Positions 707 to 11,710 of a stretch of DNA of 29,379 nucleotides are shown here, one piece after another. Within the stretch, counting starts at the first letter, position 1, and each line of letters opens with the position of its first letter. The stretch is from positions 1 to 29,379 of IMG/VR virus record IMGVR_UViG_3300032087_001288. One strand, given 5' to 3'. The stretch comes from a virus. The notes below the pieces were generated by a model. That model was not told the origin of the DNA, searched no databases, and saw only the letters and a program-made list of their open reading frames with translations. The position numbers and the translations under genes were made by a program.

Positions 707-3328
707 ATGACGGAACAATTATCCCTAAAAATTAGTAATAAGGAGTTCGTTGAAACTCTTTTTGGTGTTGATGCACCGTGGTGTCATGTCACAGATTTCC
801 CTCATGACCCTGGTAACATTCCTAAAGATCAACACCTCATCGCATGGAAGGGTGACTACTTCTCCCGTTATAGAATGTCGCCTAACACCAACCAATATTT
901 TACCATCAGTAACTTCTACGCTGACGAACAAGGTCAGGCACGTCGTCGCAAGGCTCTATTCAGACATACACCGGTGATTGTACTGGATGATGTGAAAGAA
1001 AAGTTGTCGATGACTGAGGTGAACAAGCTACCACAACCAGCATGGATACTTGAATCATCAGTGGGTTCTGAGCAATGGGGTTACATCCTCAATGAACCAT
1101 GTGCTGATCGTGGTCGTGTTGAGAACTTGCTCGATGGGCTGGTGGCTAACGGTCTTGCACCTGAAGGTCGTGACCCTGGCATGAAGGGTGTGACTCGATA
1201 CGTCCGACTTCCTGAAGGAATCAACAACAAAGCAAGCAAACTGGTGAACGGTCAACCGTTCCAATGTCGCATGTTACTGTGGCAACCATTCAACCGTGTA
1301 ACCCTTGAACAACTCGCTGCACCGTTCGCTGTTGACCTTGACGCAGTACGACGTGAACAACGTGTTGACGGTGCTGCTGAGATTTCTGACCATCCTCTGA
1401 TCAATATCCCTGAAACTATCCACATTAAAGAAGTTCGCAGTGACGGACGCTTCGACATTACATGTCCGTGGATGCATGAGCACACCGGTCAAGACGATTC
1501 AGGATCAGCAGTGTTCACAAACTCAGACGGTACGATGGGCTTCAAATGTCACCACGGTGCTTGTCAGGGTCGTACTGGTGCAGACTTACTGCGTCACATT
1601 GAGAATCAATCACCAGGGTTCAACTCGAAACTGAAGAACTGGCAGGTGATGCGTGAGCTAGACATTGTTGCTGAACCAATATCGTTTATGGCTGCCACCC
1701 CTGTTCAACCACCTGCACCGGTAGCACCTCAACCAGCACCACAGCTACCTGAAGTCAGCTTCATGACTCCAACTGCTGCACCACAGCCACCAGCACCTGC
1801 TGAGACTGTGACCCCTGATGCACTTCAGCTTCTTTGTGACAACCTTCGTCGTCAGCTACCTGGTACAACTGAGCAGCGTGAACTGGCATCAAAGGTGCTG
1901 AAGTTCACCGATGATATGCCAAAGATTGATCAGAAGCACTGGCACGAAATCGTGGTGGACATCATGCGATGGTCGAAGGCTGACTTCAAAGACATCATCA
2001 CTGACCTGCGTAAAACTTGGTACGGTGAGAAGGTAAGCAAAGCAGAATTTTATGATGACGTGGTGTTCGTTAAAGAACTCAACCAATTCTATGACTGGGA
2101 ATCACGCATCTTCTTCAGCACTGAAGCATTCCAGAACTCATTCAGCCACGAAGATGCAGAAGCACGCAAGATTGCACTGCAAGAAGGTCGAGTACAGAAG
2201 GTTGACCGTCTGGACTACGCACCGAAACAACCACGTATCTTCATTGAAAACGGTTGTCGCTACGCTAACACGTGGAGTGATGCAACACAGTTCTTCGGTG
2301 AACCTGGTGATGCTAGTCGCTGGACCATGCACTTCGGTGCGCTCGGTTGGGAAGAACACCGTGACCACATTGAAAAATGGATGGCGTTCACTCTTCGTCA
2401 CCCTGATCAGAAAATCAACCACATGTTACTGCTAGGTTCTGGTGAAGGTTGTGGTAAAGACTTCTTACTGTACCCACTGATCAAAGCGATGGGTGAGAAC
2501 AACACCGTCATCAGTGGTGAAGAACTACTGGAAGGGTTCAACGACTACGTGCTGTCAACCAAGTACCTGCACATTAATGAGACAGAACTGGGTGACCGTC
2601 GTGAAGCAATGGCTGTTAGTAACAAGCTCAAACCACTGGCTGCTGCACCACCAGAAACACTGTCTGTGAACCAGAAAGGTATCAAGCGCATCAAGATCAG
2701 AAACATCGTCAACGCTACCATGACCACTAACTCAGTGATGCCGTTGCGCTTGAATGGTCCATCACGACGCTTCTATGCAATATGGTCAGACCTGAACCCA
2801 CGTGACAAGCACGACAACATGAAGCGTGAGTGGCTGGATTACTGGGAAGACCGTTGGACGTGGATGAAGTCAGGTGGTTGGAAGGCTGTCGTGTACCATT
2901 TGATGCACGTCGTTGACCTGAGCAGCTTCAACCCTAACGAAGCACCACCGATGACTGAGTTCCTACGTGAGATCAAAGAGTCATCGAAGTCACCAATGCA
3001 GCAGACCCTGGAAGCATTCATCAACAAGAAACATGGTGCATTCCGTTGTGACATCCTGACTACTAATGACATGGGTGAGACTTTACGAGCTGGTGCAATG
3101 ACACCGGCTGATATGATGACCGATCCGAAGTTCTTCACGGACAAGAAGATCGGGATGCTATTGAAAGAGATTGGGAGCTACCAACAGATCCGCACCAGTG
3201 ATGCACGTCTGTGGATAGTTCGTAATGAAGAGAACTACGCTGCTATGTCATCGACTGAGTTGTACCGTGAGTACGAGCGTCAGATGCGTGAAGCACGTGG
3301 TGAACAACAACTGACTGTGGTGAAGTGA
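707..3328 (+). CDS. Primase-helicase (AEP/RepB-type primase region plus SF3-like helicase)
   Basis: This 873-residue replication protein appears to combine priming and unwinding. Residues ~1-220 resemble the archaeo-eukaryotic/RepB primase fold: hydrophobic strand plus acids in VIVLDDV (~90-96), then SSVGSEQWGYIL and a GVTRYVRLPEGINNK motif. A zinc-finger-like cluster follows at ~253-286 (CPWMHEHT ... CHHGAC), and a Pro-rich linker at ~331-366. The C-terminal half is an SF3/DUF5906-like helicase with Walker A GSGEGCGKD (577-585, Asp in place of the usual Ser/Thr), Walker B-like LHINETE (~621-627), sensor-like TTNS (~673-676) and arginine-finger-like GPSRRF (~684-689). The ATG at 707 is chosen over a TTG 10 codons earlier because AAGG precedes it. 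It heads the early operon. The primase half lacks a textbook DxD motif, so its activity is uncertain. Confidence 0.85.
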   Translation: MTEQLSLKISNKEFVETLFGVDAPWCHVTDFPHDPGNIPKDQHLIAWKGDYFSRYRMSPNTNQYFTISNFYADEQGQARRRKALFRHTPVIVLDDVKEKLSMTEVNKLPQPAWILESSVGSEQWGYILNEPCADRGRVENLLDGLVANGLAPEGRDPGMKGVTRYVRLPEGINNKASKLVNGQPFQCRMLLWQPFNRVTLEQLAAPFAVDLDAVRREQRVDGAAEISDHPLINIPETIHIKEVRSDGRFDITCPWMHEHTGQDDSGSAVFTNSDGTMGFKCHHGACQGRTGADLLRHIENQSPGFNSKLKNWQVMRELDIVAEPISFMAATPVQPPAPVAPQPAPQLPEVSFMTPTAAPQPPAPAETVTPDALQLLCDNLRRQLPGTTEQRELASKVLKFTDDMPKIDQKHWHEIVVDIMRWSKADFKDIITDLRKTWYGEKVSKAEFYDDVVFVKELNQFYDWESRIFFSTEAFQNSFSHEDAEARKIALQEGRVQKVDRLDYAPKQPRIFIENGCRYANTWSDATQFFGEPGDASRWTMHFGALGWEEHRDHIEKWMAFTLRHPDQKINHMLLLGSGEGCGKDFLLYPLIKAMGENNTVISGEELLEGFNDYVLSTKYLHINETELGDRREAMAVSNKLKPLAAAPPETLSVNQKGIKRIKIRNIVNATMTTNSVMPLRLNGPSRRFYAIWSDLNPRDKHDNMKREWLDYWEDRWTWMKSGGWKAVVYHLMHVVDLSSFNPNEAPPMTEFLREIKESSKSPMQQTLEAFINKKHGAFRCDILTTNDMGETLRAGAMTPADMMTDPKFFTDKKIGMLLKEIGSYQQIRTSDARLWIVRNEENYAAMSSTELYREYERQMREARGEQQLTVVK

Positions 3329-9626: not shown

Positions 9627-10079
9627 ATGATAAAGGTCAGACTACTAGATGAGTTGAATCTACCACCGAAGAAGGCGTGCTTCGTGGTGGAGTACATCAA
9701 AGATTTCGCACCACGTCGTGCAGCAGAAGCATCAGGTTATTCTGCTGACTATGGTTACCGGTTACTTGAAGAACCTGAAGTGAGCAACGCTATTGAGTAC
9801 ATCATTCAGCAGCGACTCGAAGTGAACATGATTGATGCTGACTGGTTGCTCAATGAGATGGTGGACAACCACATGATTGCACGTCAGCAGGGTAACATCA
9901 CAGCCAGCAACACAGCACTCAATATGGTGGGTAAGCACAAGCGTGTCGATGCCTTTGCTGCTGACAAGATTAAGGTCAGTACAGATGCTGATGTGGTGGA
10001 CCGCCTGGTTGCTGCACGTCGTCGTGTTTCTGAAGCTAACAAGCCACCACAGGAAGATGATGACGTTTCATTCCTGTAA
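9627..10079 (+). CDS. terS: Terminase small subunit
   Basis: This 150-residue protein recognises phage DNA for packaging and hands it to the large terminase. The N-terminal third has the family pattern: LNLPPKKACFVVEYIKDFAPRRAAEASGYS, an HTH-like DNA-binding part, followed by YGYRLLEEPEVSNAIEYII. The middle is helical, as in the oligomerisation core, and the acidic C-terminus (PPQEDDDVSFL) fits the tail that contacts large terminase. Its SD is AAGGA. It is the first plus-strand gene after the control region, and large terminase follows 113 bases later. Confidence 0.88.
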   Translation: MIKVRLLDELNLPPKKACFVVEYIKDFAPRRAAEASGYSADYGYRLLEEPEVSNAIEYIIQQRLEVNMIDADWLLNEMVDNHMIARQQGNITASNTALNMVGKHKRVDAFAADKIKVSTDADVVDRLVAARRRVSEANKPPQEDDDVSFL

Positions 10080-10093
10080 TGCTAATCTAATAA

Positions 10094-10176
10094 TGCTCAC
10101 CACTGGTTAAAGCAGTCACCAGTAGTCCGTCACCCTATTGGCAATCTTACCAGTGGTGAGCAATCCAACTGGTGAC
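10094..10176 (+). promoter_or_regulatory. Interleaved inverted repeats between terS and terL (possible RNA pseudoknot)
   Basis: Stem 1: TGCTCACCACTGGT (10094-10107) with ACCAGTGGTGAGCA (10149-10162), 14 perfect pairs. Stem 2: GTCACCAGT (10115-10123, in the loop of stem 1) with ACTGGTGAC (10168-10176), 9 perfect pairs. Order A, B, A', B' is the topology of an H-type pseudoknot. It ends 16 bases before the terL ATG, just ahead of its RBS (AAGGTGAC, 10183-10190). It could regulate terL translation or be a DNA packaging site. Confidence 0.7.
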
Positions 10177-10192
10177 AACGACAAGGTGACGC

Positions 10193-11710
10193 ATGTCTGA
10201 TATTGATATTTCATTAGCTGAAGAGATCAGCCAATTCTATGACGACCCGTTGGGCTTCGTCCGTTTCGCATATCCCTGGGGTGAACCTGGGTCATCCCTC
10301 AACGGCTTCGACGGTCCTGATGAATGGCAGGTTGACGTACTCACTGCTATCGGTGAAGCAGTCAAAGAACGTGGGTTTGATGGTATCAACGCTGTTGACC
10401 CGATCCAGGTTGCAGTGTCGTCCGGTCACGGTATCGGTAAATCAGCACTGTCTTCGTGGCTCATCAACTGGGTCATGTCCACCAGACCACATTCAAAAGG
10501 CGTTGTGACAGCCAACACCGGTGATCAGCTTAAAACCAAAACCATGTCAGAACTGGCAAAGTGGACATCACTGTGCATCACTGGTCACTGGTTCGACGTA
10601 TCCACTATGGCAATCGTTCATCGTGCCTACCCTAAGACCTGGCGTGTCGATGCTCAGACATGTCGTGAAGAGAACTCTGAAGCATTCGCAGGTCTGCACG
10701 CAGCATCATCAACACCGTGGTACTTATTCGATGAAGCATCAGCCATCCCTGAAAAGATATGGGAGGTTGCGAAAGGCGGTCTGACTGATGGTGAACCGAT
10801 GCACATCTGCTTCGGTAACCCGACCCGTAACAACGGTTCATTCTACGAGTGTTTCAGGAAGAACAGTCACCGGTGGATCACAAGACAGATTGACAGTCGT
10901 AAAGCTAAGATGACGAACAAGCGACTCATTCAGACCTGGATAGATGACTTCGGTGAAGACAGCGACTTTGTGCGTGTTCGTGTTCGTGGCATGTTCCCGA
11001 AAGGTGGTGACATGCAGTTCATACCATCAGATGTTGTCTATGATGCAATGCGTCGTGGTTCTGGCATGTACCTCGGTGATGACCCGTTGATCTGTGGTAT
11101 AGACATGGCACGTGGTGGTGACGATAACTGTATGATTCAGTTTCGACGTGGTAAAGATGCCAAGTCTGAGAAGGTTTACAAGATACCAGGTGAGAAGTCA
11201 CGTGACTCAATGAAGGTTGTGTCACTGCTGACAATGATACTTGATAGACACAAACCTGACGTTGCGTTCATGGATAAGGGTTCAATGGGTGGACCTGTAG
11301 CAGATAGGCTGCGTCAACTGGGTTACCATGTCATTGATGTTGGTTTCGGTGACAATGCTGCTGACGTGAAGCACTACAAAATGCGTACTGCTGAGATGGG
11401 TGCACGTTGTCGTCAGTGGCTGCTCGATGGTGGTGCTATTCCTAATGACACACAGCTTGAGCTTGAACTGACTGCACGTGAGTTCGGACACAATGACAAA
11501 GACCAACTGGTGTTAGAACGTAAGAAGGACATGAAGAAGCGCATCGGTGTATCACCTGACTGGGCTGATGCGTTGTATCTGACGTTTGCTGAACCTGTTC
11601 CTAAGCGTGAAGTACCACGTGGACATCTTGACCACAACCCGTACACACGTAACAATGACCGACGTGACTACAACCCGTTAGATAACATGGACTCAGATGA
11701 ATACCTGTAG
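10193..11710 (+). CDS. terL: Terminase large subunit (packaging ATPase and nuclease)
   Basis: This 505-residue motor pumps DNA into the prohead and cuts it. The ATPase half shows Walker A SGHGIGKS (77-84), Walker B WYLFDE (176-181, D180/E181) and the coupling motif GNPTRNNGSF (~208-217). The RNase H-like nuclease half has D304 (GIDMARGGDD), D361 (FMDKGS) and D459 (PDWADALYL), the three usual metal-binding acids. Length is normal. The SD is AAGGTGAC. It lies between terS and the head genes, as in most tailed phages. The conserved residues are all present, so it should be active. Confidence 0.96.
   Translation: MSDIDISLAEEISQFYDDPLGFVRFAYPWGEPGSSLNGFDGPDEWQVDVLTAIGEAVKERGFDGINAVDPIQVAVSSGHGIGKSALSSWLINWVMSTRPHSKGVVTANTGDQLKTKTMSELAKWTSLCITGHWFDVSTMAIVHRAYPKTWRVDAQTCREENSEAFAGLHAASSTPWYLFDEASAIPEKIWEVAKGGLTDGEPMHICFGNPTRNNGSFYECFRKNSHRWITRQIDSRKAKMTNKRLIQTWIDDFGEDSDFVRVRVRGMFPKGGDMQFIPSDVVYDAMRRGSGMYLGDDPLICGIDMARGGDDNCMIQFRRGKDAKSEKVYKIPGEKSRDSMKVVSLLTMILDRHKPDVAFMDKGSMGGPVADRLRQLGYHVIDVGFGDNAADVKHYKMRTAEMGARCRQWLLDGGAIPNDTQLELELTAREFGHNDKDQLVLERKKDMKKRIGVSPDWADALYLTFAEPVPKREVPRGHLDHNPYTRNNDRRDYNPLDNMDSDEYL

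Follow-up and report, generated by a model that had tools for sequence, protein, structure and literature searches.

What do two long, interleaved inverted repeats do in the short gap between the two terminase genes of a Vibrio-type phage? The question is raised by a 29,379-nucleotide stretch of viral DNA, the window, in which terS (9627-10079, plus strand) is followed by terL (10193-11710, plus strand) after 113 nt. Both gene calls came from a reading of the sequence alone, and both hold: the 150-aa small subunit matches Pfam Terminase_2 with an E value of 2e-12 as well as PHROG 51, and the 505-aa large subunit matches PHROG 2 and 5902 and finds relatives by tblastn. The same sequence-only reading had described a 14-bp perfect inverted repeat (10094-10107/10149-10162) and a 9-bp one (10115-10123/10168-10176), nested in A-B-A′-B′ order and unlikely to be there by chance. 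We found both repeats in the terS-terL gap as described and in that order, and the interleaved topology is kept in relatives. When the gap was shuffled 5,000 times with dinucleotide composition preserved, perfect inverted repeats of at least 9 bp arose in 70 shuffles and of at least 11 bp in 4, and not one of the 5,000 contained either a repeat of at least 14 bp or two repeats of at least 9 bp. Besides the 14-bp pair, the whole window has no perfect inverted repeat that reaches 11 bp with a gap of at most 70.

We collected relatives by tblastn-type TerL scans, which gave 80 viral contigs, and then from further sets with TerL alignments. The resulting comparison table holds 33 loci, and the pairing tests cover 27. 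A covarying fold was found at the same junction in relatives whose TerL is 65-99% identical, among them the cultured Vibrio phages 1.021.A, 1.185.O, PS25B.1, and MZH0603 and many uncultured ones. Across these loci, the letters of the 14-bp repeat arms are almost wholly replaced while their complementarity is kept. Inside them lies a hairpin with a near-constant CGTCACC loop, and GGTGAC follows, once or twice, ahead of the start codon.

In the window, where all parts are read on the plus strand, the 14-bp repeat makes up the outer helix, P1, with the 5′ arm TGCTCACCACTGGT at 10094-10107 and the 3′ arm ACCAGTGGTGAGCA at 10149-10162, both defined by the perfect repeat and by covariation. P1 encloses a second helix, P2, whose covarying arms CCAGTAG (10119-10125) and CTATTGG (10135-10141) include one G·U pair. 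Comparison of loci delimits the P2 loop TCCGTCACC (10126-10134), with the near-invariant CGTCACC at 10128-10134, as well as the two sides of the internal loop, J1/2 (10108-10118) and J2/1 (10142-10148), and a linker (10163-10170) that leads to a predicted third helix, P3. CGTCACC would be the 5′ strand of P3, and the 3′ strand would be a first copy of GGTGAC (10171-10176), pairing with 10129-10134. The terL Shine-Dalgarno sequence AAGGTGA overlaps a second copy, GGTGACG (10183-10191 together); this copy, at 10185-10191, is an alternative 7-bp partner of the loop at 10128-10134. In the family at large, P1 has 12-17 bp, P2 mostly 5-8 bp, and the loop with CGUCACC 8-10 nt; the P1-P3 linker is 7-12 nt long in most of the window's group and 14-20 nt in loci with a small internal loop. 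Folding of the isolated P1+P2 domain returned these helices as the core of the minimum free energy structure, with a few extra pairs, at −32.4 kcal/mol, and the duplex energies of the loop were −9.6 kcal/mol with copy 1 and −11.4 kcal/mol with copy 2. Folding of the whole gap with pseudoknots disallowed favoured another nested structure (−37.4 kcal/mol, z −3.1); the case for the pseudoknot therefore rests on comparison and not on the energy of one sequence.

Covariation in relatives had been named as the check on this structure, and for P1 it is strongly present. We scored each 5′ arm against its own 3′ region and against that of every other locus. Over the 27 loci, the pairing score of P1 was 31.9 with its own arm versus 17.9 with swapped arms, and that of P2 was 13.1 versus 5.7; for neither helix did any of 10,000 permutations reach the observed value. 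When 24 matches, including a minus-strand self-match of L007, were aligned with a covariance model, the covariation score was 0.656, compared with 0.218 (sd 0.018) for shuffled and at most 0.114 for slid alignments, and for each of the 21 P1/P2 pairs at least one sequence had both bases changed, values that lean toward the fold because the alignment was fitted to the structure. The swapped-arm test and a test of strand are independent of that alignment. For the latter, P1 was located strand-blind, with a score that penalizes all mismatches equally, and its mismatches on the sense strand proved to be 23 G·U, 1 A·C, and 4 others. Since an A·C on the sense strand is a G·U on the opposite strand, the ratio of 23 to 1 indicates that P1 is kept as terL-sense RNA. 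The nominal p of 3e-6 for this asymmetry is too small because the loci share ancestry, but the direction is clear: P1 is selected as sense RNA, and not as a DNA palindrome or an antisense RNA. At the level of sequence comparison, these data show an RNA fold made of P1 and P2 around a near-invariant loop.

A loop-tail pairing of at least 5 bp is possible in 25 of the 27 loci. Covariation for P3 is thin because the loop and GGTGA are near-constant, and its own-arm excess is small, the observed sum being reached by 109 of 5,000 permutations over the 27 loci. The loop TTCGTCACT of L270 pairs over 9 bp with AGTGACGAA, both sides having changed relative to CGTCACC/GGTGACG, and the Shine-Dalgarno sequence of this locus, AAGGTGGC, fits the changed loop poorly. 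L084 has a shifted 8-bp version, CCCGTCAC/GTGACGGG. The pairings in these two loci favour copy 1 as the partner of the loop. A smaller internal loop goes with a longer P1-P3 linker (Spearman −0.61, p 0.0015, for loci that cluster by ancestry); such a trade-off would follow from a need for the loop to span the distance to GGTGA, and we take it as supporting evidence only. The comparisons support well a P3 pseudoknot in which the loop pairs with GGUGA(C/U) just 3′ of P1.

The sequence-only reading had proposed an H-type pseudoknot built from the two perfect repeats. Its general form survives, as an H-type-like RNA pseudoknot adjoining the terL ribosome binding site: the first-helix positions (P1 and P2) covary, and the loop can pair with the 3′ sequence, with covariation for that pairing in L270 and L084 only. 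The second helix, by contrast, had been chosen wrongly. The 9-bp helix GTCACCAGT/ACTGGTGAC occurs as a stem only in the window and the near-identical L081-L083 and is broken in L001, and there is no own-arm excess for it in the 27 loci (346 of 5,000 permutations reach the sum). The conserved partner of GGTGAC is instead the P2 hairpin loop (10126-10134), which had been overlooked. With a duplex energy of −14.0 kcal/mol and arms that overlap P2 and copy 1, the 5′ arm (10115-10123, plus strand, found in near-identical phages only) running into that of P2, the 9-bp helix could compete with P2 and P3 in the window.

How widely does the element occur? The terS-terL gap measures about 97-165 nt in loci that bear it and is longer where DNA has been inserted; the element is absent from loci whose terS and terL almost abut. 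It was likewise absent upstream in four of four prophage relatives compared, which come from bacterial genomes and have TerL at most 54% identical. Viral contigs scanned three times with degenerate patterns gave mostly chance matches, and those left after filtering for P1 and P2 were nearly all terS-terL junctions of this clade; matches in other contexts (L131, L144, and L154) were GC-rich or repetitive and were taken as chance. The automatic filter of the gap survey missed L084, L245, L027, L028, and the variants L374/L368. Upstream of terL, the P1-like stems of the variants L019/L374 and L024/L368 surround a core of another kind, GAAGGTGAA..TCATCGGCA, and its CATCGG/CATCG is matched by CCGATG/CGATG ahead of the start codon; from their sequences, these are possibly pseudoknot versions with an entirely changed P3. 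In L084 (MN592897.1, phage MZH0603), the annotated terL start falls within the P1 3′ arm (element at 1107-1152), and homology together with a Shine-Dalgarno sequence places the start at TTG 1153. In L083 (MW824406.1, phage PS25B.1), the distance from terL to the next gene is about 600 nt (2675-3312), compared with about 45 nt in relatives.

In L004, L049, L018, and L354, terL is set apart from the element by a small ORF or other DNA, and P1, P2, and copy 1 are retained despite the insertion. The inserted gene of L049 (1905-3008) encodes a T5orf172 domain, and that of L003/L013 is an HNH endonuclease gene (HNH_3/AP2-like; 2456-3004 in L013). These two unrelated homing-endonuclease-type genes occupy the same junction, where each separates the element from terL, and overlap the terL start. 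In L245 and in L013, with its inserted gene, the loop is kept and no P3 partner lies nearby.

Directly after the terS stop, at 10080-10088 on the plus strand, comparison of loci revealed an extended −10-like motif, TGCTAATCT (family consensus TGnTAnnCT). TGnTAnn(C/A)T ends 3-12 nt upstream of P1 in 31 of the 33 loci, with near matches in the other 2, a distance that would probably put the RNA 5′ end at P1; we infer a transcription start at about 10094-10096, around the first base of this helix. The TGA of the motif is the terS stop codon in some phages, and in others the stop lies upstream; since the position of the stop varies, coding does not explain the motif. No consistent −35 was found among the members, about half of which have no −35-like match at all. 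A fixed −35, ATGACG at 10060-10065 with a spacer of 17, was discarded: it recurs only with a similar acidic TerS tail and may be coding. A generic promoter scan gave no call at the −10-like motif, so we treat the promoter as putative. The junctions of L046 (upstream of 3001) and L381 (upstream of 1201) are variants with TGTTATGAT, followed by a 12-bp perfect stem, CAGGCACCTGGT/ACCAGGTGCCTG, that encloses a P2-like hairpin, and directly after it by TTTTTTT. By sequence, this arrangement resembles a promoter combined with an intrinsic terminator ahead of terL.

The terL message probably begins with the element and is controlled by it in translation or lifetime. More specifically, we consider it an even call that the element is a structured 5′ leader of this message whose pseudoknot governs terL initiation. 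The RNA would start at P1, driven by an extended −10 promoter that overlaps the terS stop or follows it closely. In the window's group, P3 would form on GGUGAC copy 1, 8 nt ahead of the terL Shine-Dalgarno sequence, and the loop could swap from there to the second GGUGAC, the Shine-Dalgarno sequence itself. Such a swap would allow the leader to expose or close off the terL start site and so set the amount of TerL, and perhaps of downstream gene products, relative to TerS; control of the terS:terL ratio, suggested already by the sequence-only reading, is plausible. Where a relative has one copy only, the Shine-Dalgarno sequence itself would be covered by this pairing. In general terms, a loop with an anti-Shine-Dalgarno sequence would control ribosome access to whichever gene comes next, usually terL. 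It weighs against this reading that GGTGA is nothing unusual as a Shine-Dalgarno sequence in this phage, serving 8 of 24 listed genes; the two strands of the window (1-29379) together contain 49 GGTGAC, versus 22 expected. A bolder version, which we put forward tentatively as an outside chance, is that the loop mimics the anti-Shine-Dalgarno sequence and chooses between a decoy and the terL GGUGAC, a two-state switch in a new family of phage leader pseudoknots. The element persists where terL is displaced (L004, L049, L018, and L354), which means that blocking the terL Shine-Dalgarno sequence is not the whole story everywhere.

A role in RNA stability or processing is unlikely, though it accounts for part of the data. 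P1 could be a 5′-terminal or intercistronic stem that acts against 5′-end-dependent decay, or one that RNase III cuts between the terS and terL messages, with P2 and P3 contributing compactness. The stem is long, perfect, unconstrained in sequence, and directly downstream of the −10-like motif, and it survives displacement of the terL start by inserted genes, as this reading would have it. However, the near-invariant CGTCACC loop and its GGTGAC match go unexplained, as does the position of the match, 7-20 nt past P1 and usually adjoining the start codon. The loop could also be kept near-invariant by a protein rather than by pairing. TerS, TerL, or another protein might read the CCGUCACC loop on P1/P2 and repress or activate translation as gp32 does in T4, where gene 32 sets the precedent (PMC535899). 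Loop invariance does exceed what pairing with a tolerant partner needs, and L245 retains the loop without a P3 partner. On the other hand, complementarity to the Shine-Dalgarno sequence explains the loop more simply, and the loop of L270 changes together with its partner; we find such an operator doubtful. The leader pseudoknot, which ties the loop to its GGTGAC match, is the reading we prefer.

Two further explanations fare far worse. The sequence-only reading had raised a packaging start or a DNA-protein site, in which the arms would be TerS-binding repeats or a cruciform at a pac or cos site; the location between terS and terL and the CACCAGT/ACTGGTG cores repeated in the window fit this, but the cores are missing from most relatives, the letters of P1 are free while its pairing is kept, and its G·U-rich mismatches mark a sense RNA, unlike a DNA site, so with neither DNA-level conservation nor a strand-symmetric palindrome found we regard it as very improbable. 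It is just as hard to credit a free-standing small RNA made from the −10-like motif, for instance a packaging-associated one like phi29 pRNA, with readthrough into terL incidental: the element does persist with genes inserted before terL, and in L046/L381 the hairpin and TTTTTTT follow a good extended −10, but the window and most members have no terminator after P1, and P3 extends into the terL ribosome binding site in most members. An intrinsic terminator or attenuator was rejected, P1 of the window being followed by ATCCAACT with no U-run and no terminator-like call, and a T-run being present only in L046/L381; so was terS readthrough or frameshifting, the element lying past the terS stop and terL in a different frame.

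Is the element related to a known RNA? Rfam 15 gave no family at the gathering threshold in the window or in seven diverse members, and minus-strand matches to microRNAs, all below threshold, were taken as chance. To our knowledge, no RNA element devoted to control of the terminase large subunit has been described, and literature searches found none. A pseudoknot at the translation start controls initiation in the repZ mRNA of IncI/IncB plasmids, where it needs a leader peptide and an antisense RNA; these are not seen here, and gene, size, and sequence are different as well. Likewise, the rpsO (S15) mRNA has a pseudoknot at its translation start that controls initiation (PMC3014915), again with another gene, size, and sequence. 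The candidate RNAs of Rfam and of Weinberg et al. 2010 (PMC2864571) were, like this element, recognized by their covariation and lie upstream of a single class of gene; the word "terminase" is absent from the main text of that paper.

The closest likeness is to the gene 32 leader of phages T4, T2, and RB69, a phage pseudoknot 5′ of the Shine-Dalgarno sequence of a gene for a DNA-handling protein (PMC535899, PMC3014915). That position is shared, and so is the neighbourhood of a homing-endonuclease gene, SegG in T4 (PMC535899) and those of L003/L013 and L049 here. According to a 2010 review (PMC3014915), the T4 pseudoknot is possibly the sole viral case in translational autoregulation. The T4 element is a two-helix pseudoknot of about 28 nt that lies upstream of UUAAA repeats, and it nucleates gp32. 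In contrast, the element described here spans about 80-100 nt, its long P1 enclosing a hairpin whose loop pairs downstream; it precedes terL instead of ssb, there is no sequence match, and no UUAAA or UAAA repeats were found (in the window, at 10163-10192). The element may work like the T4 gene 32 leader, an analogy of function; homology was supported by none of our tests.

If the bolder version is true, a self-contained switch would time production of the DNA-packaging motor. Because the covarying family is present in cultured Vibrio phages (1.021, 1.185, PS25B.1, and MZH0603), such RNA-level timing could be tested in isolates.
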